A stretch of DNA of 57,196 nt from positions 1-57,196 of the forward strand of contig JAMPAL010000007.1 in the NCBI GenBank assembly GCA_023667245.1. The letters are read 5' to 3'. The notes beneath the pieces are model-generated. The model was given only the letters and a program-made list of their open reading frames with translations. It searched no databases and was not told the origin of the DNA. A program made the translations under genes and the position numbers. The DNA comes from Anaeroplasma bactoclasticum (GTDB lineage: Bacteria; Bacillota_I; Bacilli_A; ML615J-28; CAG-313). Shown piece by piece: positions 7,191 through 38,040 of this stretch. How positions within the stretch are numbered: position 1 is the first letter of the stretch; every line of letters starts with the position of its first letter.

Positions 7191-9368
7191 TTATTGATTG
7201 AAAATCTCAGTTACTACATATTGACCATTGTCATTTAATGCATAGCGAACTTGGACATTTTCTTGAGTGGTTGTAGTATATTGATGAATAATAGCACCAC
7301 TACCCACTGATTGACCAGCTGTGCCTAATAAATCAACTACTTGATCAATAGTCATACCTATTGACAATTGTCCCATTAATGTGGATGAAATAGTTGGTAC
7401 TGTGTTTACACCATAAATAGGTTGTTGTAATTGTGAAACAGATAATGTAGTAGCAGTAGTTGCTTGATACATATTATCCCATCCAGATACTGCATAGAAA
7501 CCTAAGAATAAATCATATTCAAAGTAGCCATTTCTTCTATCTGCTGTTTCTGGATCAATAATTAAATTACCACTATAGTCATATCTTGTAACTGCAGTTC
7601 CACCAGGTTTATGTGACCAATATCCATCTGCATCTTGACGATACCAATGATAATCTTCGTTTGAACTATTTGCAACTAATGCCACTTTATACGTACCCGC
7701 AGGACATGCATCATATTTTCCTATGGGTTGGAATACAAGATTTGTACCAAAGTCTTCATTGTATTTAACAAAGTCACTTAGTACAGCAGCTCTCATTTCT
7801 TCCTCATTTGTGAAATCTTCTGCCCAATTACCTGCGTATTCACCAGGTTGTTGAAACCAAAGCCAATTAGTTCCAGGATATACTTGATTATTTAAAGCAT
7901 ATGCATAACAATTATTATAAGGTCTGGTTTGTCCATTCCAAAGACTAGGATTGTATTCTTTTTCATATCCAGACAAAGCTAGTGTAACAAATACGGAAAG
8001 AACAATTCTAACACGTGGATTATATTTATAAGAACCTGTAATAGTTATTGTTTTCCCTAATGCAGATTTTTCTATTTTCATTAATCCCCAGCTTGTAACT
8101 GTAATATCCGCTGGTTTTGAAGAAACCCACTCATAATCAGATAATATATTAATTGGAACATCTACATCATTTAAATCGATAAGTGTATCTTTACCTGCCG
8201 CTACTGTCATAGATACAGGTATATCAATCATACTAATATTTGTATCTTGAAGAATTTTAAATTCCCTTACATATGTAATGGCTGGATTCTTTTTGTATAC
8301 CGCAACAATTTTTACTGTTTCACTTGGCTCTGAAATTGGTAAAGCTAAAACTGTACCATAGGAACTCACTGTTGCAACCTTAGTATTACTACTATACCAA
8401 CTGTAGTCTAAACGAGATTGACTTGGTGCAGTTGCTTCCATAAAAATTAAACGCGTGAATCCCTCTGTAATAAAGGATTGATTGTAGCTCTTCGTTGTGC
8501 TATTTTTTTCATTGACTGAAATTTCACTTCCAGTTAAACCTTTACGTGGATCAGTCATTAGCATATTGTTGACTGGAGAAGTAACTTCTCTAGTCATATC
8601 TAAACGAATAGTAGCTGAATTAGATAAATTAAAATATCCAATATAATAAGTGCTAGCATCTAAATCTACTGTTTGTGCATAATTTGTACGAGCACTATAA
8701 CTATAGATTACTTTTCTAGAAGAATTAAACAATACTACAACGTAATCATTTGATAATGTTCCTGTAACTGTACTTTTAATTTCAAATCTACCTGGTTGTT
8801 TAACTACAAATCTTTTTACTTGATCTCCGGCTACACCTTGTTGAAGTAGGTTTGCTGTAAAAGTGGTAGGATTATTATAATCAAACATATTGATATCAGT
8901 AGTATTATCTGAAGATCCGGCGTTCTCAACAGTTAATGTTAATGATGTTAAATTAGCAGTATTATAATTTATTTCTACATAATATTTTGCTGTTTTTGGT
9001 AATTGTACGCTTAGATTGTTGACATTGTCGTTAGTTGCATTCATATCATATCCTGCAACATTTAGTTTTTTCATCAATTGATAATTGGCATCTTTGACTT
9101 GAATAGCACCTGCTGGATAAGTTACTTCGCCATTAGTCTTAGTTGCTTTTAAGGTAATATTAACAAATCCAGTACTACCAGAAAATCGGAACACTCCAAA
9201 ATTATTATCCATATTAGAAAGAATATCAGTAGTTTTGTTTGTTGAAATAGTCGTAAAATCTGTTGGTACTACTGGTGCCGCAAATACATTAGCGAATTTT
9301 CCTGTCACAAAAGTAAGACATGCTAATAATAAAGTTAATGTCAATAACTTTTTCACAATTTTTTTCAT
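7191..9368 (-). CDS. Secreted multidomain protein with Ig-like domains and a putative papain-like peptidase domain
   Basis: A 725-residue exported protein with a signal peptide over residues 1-31 (cleavage near VFAAP). Residues about 40-280 form two beta-rich modules of unknown family. Two BIG2/Ig-like modules follow at about 285-465, with YSWYSSNTKVATVSSYGTVL typical of bacterial Ig folds. Residues 468-640 look like a papain-fold cysteine hydrolase: NNCYAYALN (Cys487), DYHWYR (His574) and GYWSHKPG (His586). The catalytic role is an inference from this Cys/His pattern. The C-terminal 84 residues resemble a SmpA/BLIP-like module (GMTIDQVVDLLG, GSG). It could be a wall-associated peptidase or amidase. 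GGGGAGG precedes the ATG. The gene has a long structured leader and its own terminator, so it is monocistronic. Confidence 0.75.
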   Translation of the reverse strand: MKKIVKKLLTLTLLLACLTFVTGKFANVFAAPVVPTDFTTISTNKTTDILSNMDNNFGVFRFSGSTGFVNITLKATKTNGEVTYPAGAIQVKDANYQLMKKLNVAGYDMNATNDNVNNLSVQLPKTAKYYVEINYNTANLTSLTLTVENAGSSDNTTDINMFDYNNPTTFTANLLQQGVAGDQVKRFVVKQPGRFEIKSTVTGTLSNDYVVVLFNSSRKVIYSYSARTNYAQTVDLDASTYYIGYFNLSNSATIRLDMTREVTSPVNNMLMTDPRKGLTGSEISVNEKNSTTKSYNQSFITEGFTRLIFMEATAPSQSRLDYSWYSSNTKVATVSSYGTVLALPISEPSETVKIVAVYKKNPAITYVREFKILQDTNISMIDIPVSMTVAAGKDTLIDLNDVDVPINILSDYEWVSSKPADITVTSWGLMKIEKSALGKTITITGSYKYNPRVRIVLSVFVTLALSGYEKEYNPSLWNGQTRPYNNCYAYALNNQVYPGTNWLWFQQPGEYAGNWAEDFTNEEEMRAAVLSDFVKYNEDFGTNLVFQPIGKYDACPAGTYKVALVANSSNEDYHWYRQDADGYWSHKPGGTAVTRYDYSGNLIIDPETADRRNGYFEYDLFLGFYAVSGWDNMYQATTATTLSVSQLQQPIYGVNTVPTISSTLMGQLSIGMTIDQVVDLLGTAGQSVGSGAIIHQYTTTTQENVQVRYALNDNGQYVVTEIFNQ

Positions 9369-9430
9369 TTTCTATTTCCTCCCCTATTGAATTTAAATTG
9401 TAAAATGTCTAATTTTAACTTTATTATTTT

Positions 9431-9469
9431 TTATATGACTATAACTAAAAATATAAGATAATATCTCAT
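9431..9469 (-). CDS. Possible 12-residue leader peptide
   Basis: Within the leader a 13-codon frame (MRYYLIFLVIVI, then TAA) starts at the ATG at 9467-9469. It is preceded by AAAGGGGGGAAGTT, one of the strongest Shine-Dalgarno sequences in the window. The peptide would be very hydrophobic. It lies between the attenuator-like hairpin and the main gene. Translation is an inference from the ribosome binding site alone. Confidence 0.3.
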   Translation of the reverse strand: MRYYLIFLVIVI

Positions 9470-9532
9470 AACTTCCCCCCTTTCAAATATAAAAGAACAT
9501 TTATGAAAAATGACTTTTATCCATATAAAAAC

Positions 9533-9561
9533 AAAAATCCTCTCCTATTGCTAAGAGAGTC
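9533..9561 (-). terminator. Attenuator-like terminator in the leader
   Basis: Leftward 7-bp stem CTCTCTT agcaat AGGAGAG followed by GATTTTTG. It lies about 90 nt after the predicted transcription start and about 165 nt before the gene. Confidence 0.65.
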
Positions 9562-9656
9562 TTTACATAATACTTTATATTTGATATTGTAATTATGAAT
9601 AGATATGTACATCTTCTATTCAAACTATCTTTGCATATAGGCTTTTCCCTATTTGT

Positions 9657-9685
9657 ATTATACCAAATTATTCAAATTTAGTCAA
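9657..9685 (-). promoter_or_regulatory. Sigma-A promoter of the secreted peptidase leader
   Basis: Minus strand TTGACT at 9680-9685, 17-nt spacer, TATAAT at 9657-9662. The predicted start is near 9650. Confidence 0.8.
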
Positions 9686-9742
9686 ATATTTACTTTTTAT
9701 GACATTTTTTTTAGTACTATATTATATCGACCTATAATGTTT

Positions 9743-37888: not shown

Positions 37889-37928
37889 AGGATTAGTATA
37901 TAATGTTAATGTTTGAAAAAACATATAT

Positions 37929-38009
37929 ATCCTAATGGGGAGCATCTGCTGAGAGGTTATTTAGTTAACGACCCAAAACCTGATCTAGATAATGCTAGCG
38001 TAGGGAAAC
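37929..38009 (+). promoter_or_regulatory. TPP (thiamine pyrophosphate) riboswitch
   Basis: The conserved TPP-box elements are present in order: GGGGAGCATCTGCTGAGAGG, ACCC, then ACCTGATCTAGATAATGCTA and GCGTAGGGAA, closed by a CCTA/TAGG stem. It sits upstream of thiT and should shut the gene off when TPP is high. A 10-bp hairpin (38010-38040) and then a terminator (38053-38081) follow. A TATAAT lies at 37898-37903. Confidence 0.95.
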
Positions 38010-38040
38010 ATGCAAATTTTTTATTCTATTAAATTTGCAT
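38010..38040 (+). other. Hairpin between TPP aptamer and terminator
   Basis: A perfect 10-bp stem ATGCAAATTT/AAATTTGCAT with an 11-nt loop and no T-run directly after it. It could be part of the switching region or a stabilising element. Confidence 0.5.

Follow-up and report, generated by a model that had tools for sequence, protein, structure and literature searches.

A candidate transcription attenuator recurring upstream of exported-protein genes in one order of Bacilli

Known attenuators and the present leader

The vmlR leader of Bacillus subtilis combines an anti-antiterminator, an antiterminator and a terminator with antibiotic-stalled ribosomes on an upstream ORF (uORF) that lies inside the anti-antiterminator (PMC9226507). 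The logic of three structures is thus already known, and attenuators of which the signal is unknown are common (PMC2965389). The leader that we describe here resembles vmlR in having three mutually exclusive structures before a gene, with an anti-antiterminator overlapping the antiterminator; it differs in that no conserved uORF precedes the terminator, while a conserved short ORF follows it. With the ABC-leaders and attenuators of unknown signal of Naville and Gautheret (2010, PMC2965389) it shares a promoter-proximal terminator with an alternative antiterminator. Compared by description and not by sequence, the two differ in that the text of that study does not mention lipoprotein or protease genes and the present leader was found in one Bacilli order only. 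LoaP-dependent leaders likewise have a hairpin near the promoter and long operons with exported products, but only house-keeping NusG-like matches are found here. Leaders controlled by ANTAR proteins should carry hexaloop hairpins in tandem, each with a conserved A1 and G4, and these are not seen in the present leader. The likeness to this last group (eut; PMC3369931) lies in a first hairpin followed by a second element that overlaps the terminator.

Our search of the literature returned no description of the present leader. None of the sources searched reports this RNA family, its confinement to a single order within the genomes examined, its use in multiple copies ahead of exported-protein genes, or a conserved short ORF behind the terminator.

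Layout of the leader and its relatives

The window is the whole stretch of 57,196 nt of Anaeroplasma bactoclasticum DNA that was analysed. The features of the locus, all on the minus strand, are the following.

9657-9685, minus: sigma-70-type promoter, TTGACT-17-TATAAT with extended -10 (TGGTATAAT), predicted from the consensus match and the same offset in 19 of 20 copies
9637-9652, minus: predicted hairpin P1, AUAGG-GAAAAG-CCUAU, at or adjoining the predicted transcription start (folding and helix counts over 20 copies)
9622-9634, minus: segment X, GCAAAGAUAGUUU, candidate 5' strand of the antiterminator, partly common to P2 and able to pair with 9562-9550
9590-9627, minus: upper P2 hairpin, the second hairpin of an initial annotation and candidate anti-antiterminator (folding)
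9540-9560, minus: predicted hairpin of the intrinsic terminator, with a GCAA loop; the 3' strand of the antiterminator is provided by its 5' arm (terminator scan, helix counts)
9527-9539, minus: U-rich tract following the terminator hairpin, where the short RNA is expected to end (read from the sequence)
9431-9469, minus: short ORF MRYYLIFLVIVI of 12 aa with Shine-Dalgarno GAAAGGGGGGAAG (read from the sequence; relatives under purifying selection)
7191-9368, minus: 725-aa secreted protein with signal peptide, Big_2-like, DUF7689-like Cys/His and BamE/BLIP-like C-terminal parts, domain matches being below curated cut-offs

Judged by sequence and by comparison with its relatives, the stretch from 9685 to 9527 very probably corresponds to a promoter followed by a transcription attenuator that combines an anti-antiterminator, an antiterminator and a terminator.

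The initial annotation of the window had placed a perfect promoter about 290 nt upstream of the start codon. Its position and spacing hold, with TTGACT at 9685-9680, a 17-nt spacer, TATAAT at 9662-9657 preceded by TG, and 289 nt from the promoter end to the ATG at 9368. The match is, however, 11 of 12 consensus bases, the -35 hexamer being one base from TTGACA. The same annotation had described two hairpins around ATGCAAAG, and we find this segment (9636-9629) between P1 (9652-9637) and upper P2 (9627-9590); in a fuller reading, the segment flanked by the two hairpins is AUGCAAAG. A 7-bp terminator-like hairpin with a T-run had also been noted. The terminator is present 164 nt ahead of the start codon, but its stem has 8 bp (CTCTCTTA-GCAA-TAGGAGAG at 9559-9540, then GATTTTTGTTTTT). 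It is the one terminator-like site in 1 kb, where shuffles expect 0.1, and the 125-nt leader is more stable than its dinucleotide shuffles (z = -2.9; 2/200). Another AT-rich hairpin with a T-run (AAAAAATCTCTTTTTTAAAAAGGGATTTTTTT) lies at 9775-9743 (minus), between the upstream lipoprotein gene and the leader promoter, and is probably the terminator of that gene.

The leader had been left without a known riboswitch class, and this stands: the covariance models of Rfam 15 do not match at their gathering threshold, and a permissive threshold yields chance-level matches only. We found by blastn against 60 genomes a near copy at 90 % identity in a congener (G001) and weaker matches that cover the promoter-to-terminator part only, at unlinked loci and in one genome twice. 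A covariance model of seven copies (R1), run on 43 genomes of the same order, yielded 20 clear copies at unlinked loci in 10 of them. The model of all 20 copies (R2) recovered the same set at E 2e-19 to 9.8e-9 together with diverged members, and leader-type loci in related uncultured bacteria number about 20 to 30. The window's own locus has one named relative only, a MAG of uncultured Bacilli.

Run on about 390 genomes of the class and about 390 of the phylum, the covariance model gave nothing convincing outside the order. One marginal match in the class (G317) was set aside; it is without P1 and precedes a different kind of gene. Several weak R2 matches were judged to be chance on reading their sequences. 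Plasmids searched with the window leader and phages searched with a family-A copy gave no match. Of two patterns run on viral contigs, the terminator pattern had no match, and the single match of the search is a coincidence within a phage gene. Two more diverged leaders of the same type were noticed in the window's own genome, one (L130) before a broken copy of the Cys/His domain of the window protein and the other (L129) before a short ORF and a 1984-aa RHS-repeat protein.

The copies follow a common plan of promoter, P1, P2, segment X (UCUAAGAUAGUU) and terminator. Nineteen of the 20 have the promoter at a constant offset; usually 4 nt separate its -10 from the P1 arm GUGUGGGG, and 21-27 nt separate it from X. 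Family P1 is GUGUGGG:CUCAUAC, and P2 is CAUACU-C-UAAG-A-UAGUUA with UAAUUA-x-CUUA-A-AGUAUG, a series of short helices with single mismatches between them. The antiterminator is UCUAAGA-U-AGUU with AACU-C-UCUUAGA and the terminator is ACUCUCUUA:UAAGAGAGU. The window departs from this plan in that the middle helix of P2 is missing and its upper part longer, and in one extra mismatch in the antiterminator.

Exclusive pairings and the predicted switch

Each structure shares a strand with the next: P1 and P2 share CAUAC, P2 and the antiterminator share X, and the antiterminator and the terminator share the terminator 5' arm. X can consequently pair either within P2, as anti-antiterminator, or with the terminator 5' arm, as antiterminator. 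The window leader is a candidate switch because its segment X is complementary to the terminator 5' arm; this complementarity, like the 12-aa ORF between terminator and gene, had no place in the initial annotation. The attenuator layout proposed earlier is borne out in the relatives, where the leader is conserved, multi-copy and covarying, with these mutually exclusive pairings.

Helices were counted on an alignment of the 20 copies (A4) against slid controls, in which pairing is far lower for all four. In P1, 89 % of cells are paired and six are changed on both sides; P2 is 88 % paired with two doubly changed pairs, the terminator 97 % with two double changes, and the antiterminator 87.5 % with one U-A to G-C double change, common to the window and G001. 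By eye, P2 goes from CAUAC/GUAUG to CAUGC/GCAUG in G011 and from AUACU/AGUAU to AUACA/UGUAU in one locus of G005 (C9). The comparison of relatives' leaders suggested in the initial annotation finds conserved hairpins with double changes that are few, some of them common to related copies.

For 30 leaders, including diverged subfamilies with other X cores (UUUCCUAAG, CCUAAGG, UUUCUAAGAG), we tested the duplex of upstream RNA with the terminator 5' arm against dinucleotide shuffles of that upstream RNA. The median P is 0.015 and 21 of the 30 are at P<=0.05; in a test of the same kind on 95 other terminators from the same set of loci (100 shuffles), the median P is 0.48 and 5 % reach P<=0.05. The test is partly dependent on how the copies were found because model matches resemble X in sequence, and the window copy alone is marginal (17/300). 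For most copies, the OFF state differs in energy by no more than a few kcal/mol from the structure formed while the terminator 3' arm is still absent.

Sequence comparison shows the unit and its conservation, the exclusive pairings, a coding short ORF in the relatives and the kinds of gene that follow; from this we infer how the switch may act in the cell and which state would be its default. Transcription would start at or adjoining P1. With X trapped in P2, the terminator would form and a short RNA of about 115-125 nt would be released (OFF). With P2 absent, either as P1 keeps the shared strand or as something opens P2, X would pair with the terminator 5' arm and permit read-through into the short ORF and the secreted-protein gene (ON). 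Since P2 is able to fold while the terminator arm is still to be transcribed, the formed P2 should correspond to OFF, and whatever keeps X out of P2 to ON. P1, as a competitor for the outer strand of P2, would be the likeliest sensing element.

Other explanations were weighed against the attenuator. P1 and P2 could together be the aptamer of a small-molecule riboswitch of an undescribed class, with the ligand choosing between P2 and the antiterminator. A conserved leader with a terminator fits a layout of aptamer plus expression platform, and no existing Rfam class is required for it. We nevertheless consider it unlikely: the conserved bases are accounted for by alternative pairing with two partners, no conserved unpaired aptamer-like core and no multi-branched one is visible in A4, loops vary in sequence and length, and the controlled genes do not form a metabolic pathway. 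Ribosome-mediated attenuation through a uORF within the leader, as in vmlR and amino-acid operons, draws on the AUG-CAA-AGA-UAG of the window that overlaps X; the window and G001 carry AUGCAAAGAUAG there. Among the 20 copies, there is no conserved ATG uORF before the terminator and none with a Shine-Dalgarno match, which makes this mechanism very improbable.

The strong promoter and the terminator bound a compact RNA and could delimit a free-standing small RNA gene of about 120 nt, lying by chance before secreted-protein genes that have another promoter. A weaker promoter-like site, TTGAAA-17-TATTAT at 9486-9458, is indeed found downstream of the terminator. Against this, nearly all copies are directly upstream of a gene for an exported protein or exporter in the same direction, the alternative pairing of the terminator arm is maintained, and a conserved downstream promoter is not seen (by eye only); a free-standing RNA is in our judgement a poor candidate. 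AT-rich intergenic DNA folds easily, and on its own P2 stands out little from shuffles (median P 0.09), as chance hairpins would, but chance is hardly credible in view of the conservation across genera and unlinked loci, the double changes in helices and the control with 95 terminators.

If the attenuator is right, its trigger could well be a trans-acting RNA-binding protein of a type outside those searched for, a suggestion that we make tentatively. For LoaP (NF033641), none of the 43 genomes has a match over the cut-off, 41 of them have one NusG-like match each, and 14 control genomes also have none over the cut-off. CAT_RBD proteins (LicT, SacY; RAT) are absent from the 10 leader genomes in a search that detects them in four control genomes. 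The search for ANTAR proteins gave no match in the same 10 genomes, and control genomes gave none either.

The short ORF and the exported proteins

A short ORF follows the terminator in 15 of the 20 copies and is frameshifted in one further copy. Most are of the type MIKIYLMNMVIIFEN and its variants, two are MKNTYLVNMLIILKRSDLK, and the window and G001 have MRYYLIFLVIVI. Over 12 codons of 12 distinct sequences, with the window type left out, pN/pS is 0.32 in frame compared to 3.2 and 1.1 in the other two frames, and the peptide of the relatives is therefore under purifying selection. The stop of the short ORF overlaps the next start codon (ATGA) in about seven copies, as read from the sequences, which suggests translational coupling. 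We consider it probable that ribosomes translate this ORF as a leader and that this assists or gates translation of the following gene. Such an ORF, conserved after the terminator and often overlapping the starts of unrelated lipoprotein genes, is unusual and may represent a testable second layer. A diverged leader subfamily has its own 24-aa version; in L145, L146 and L147 the 24-aa ORF has a GGCC...GGCC inverted repeat near its end, a possible translational checkpoint.

Judged by signal peptides, 15 of the 20 copies have a lipoprotein gene in first position behind the leader. In the window and G001 the first product is a secreted protein; two further copies precede an ABC-exporter gene and one precedes a gene for a membrane protein. 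The signal peptide MKKxFLVFMSLMFIMCLxGC is common to many of these lipoproteins, whose mature parts differ. We noted five (L022, L023, L026, L132, L133) in which the signal peptide is near-constant and the mature parts are different, as if 5' ends and 3' modules had recombined. The second gene encodes a subtilase with BspA-type LRR_5 in G003 (C20) and a trypsin-like protein with LRR_5 in G012 (C43) and G005 (C9), the trypsin match being below the curated cut-off. At another G005 locus (C3), the second gene product is C39/C10-like with LRR_5, again at a score below cut-off. At one G003 locus (L144, C5), the leader precedes two ABC half-exporters and then a protein that by eye resembles an enzyme of the BtrH_N/C39 type, possibly a peptide-export cassette.

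The window gene had been called secreted and peptidase-like. The protein has a signal peptide, the conserved motifs NCY.Y and DYH..R...W.HK and a sub-threshold DUF7689 match, and related operons contain clear peptidase domains. In a predicted structure of its C-terminal 260 residues (pLDDT 64.5), only the BamE/BLIP-like end matched, with no match below E 0.001. The peptidase fold is putative, the structure being of low confidence and its matches limited to that end. A common part of about 400 residues links the window protein to the trypsin-like/LRR protein of G012 (C43). The Cys/His region of the window protein recurs behind a diverged leader in G029 (C8) and as a broken copy in the window's own genome (G000, C22). 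In G002, the ortholog of the window protein is preceded by a different attenuator-like leader and by a lipoprotein gene that is degenerate. Genes of these kinds have therefore repeatedly come to stand behind this kind of leader.

An uncultured order of Bacilli would thereby gain a recognisable regulon in which secreted peptidases, lipoproteins and exporters stand behind one kind of RNA switch, and the covariance model with the list of copies makes the signal and the effector searchable. In a bolder picture, which we regard as rather unlikely as a whole, one lineage-specific unit (promoter, P1 with a start-site-dependent 5' arm, three-way switch and coupled short peptide) would have been copied ahead of the lipoprotein-peptidase pairs and exporters that make up a secretome. 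All of these would then be switched by one signal for the entire cell, read via an undescribed RNA-binding factor or via start-site choice at the G-rich 5' arm of P1, with the short peptide as a second, translational checkpoint.

Elsewhere in the window, a TPP riboswitch (RF00059) at 37926-38024 (plus strand) scores 54.0 bits compared to a gathering cut-off of 54.3 bits and is missed by the default Rfam scan. The gene downstream of it, with a start at about 38101, encodes a membrane protein that by eye resembles a ThiT-type transporter.
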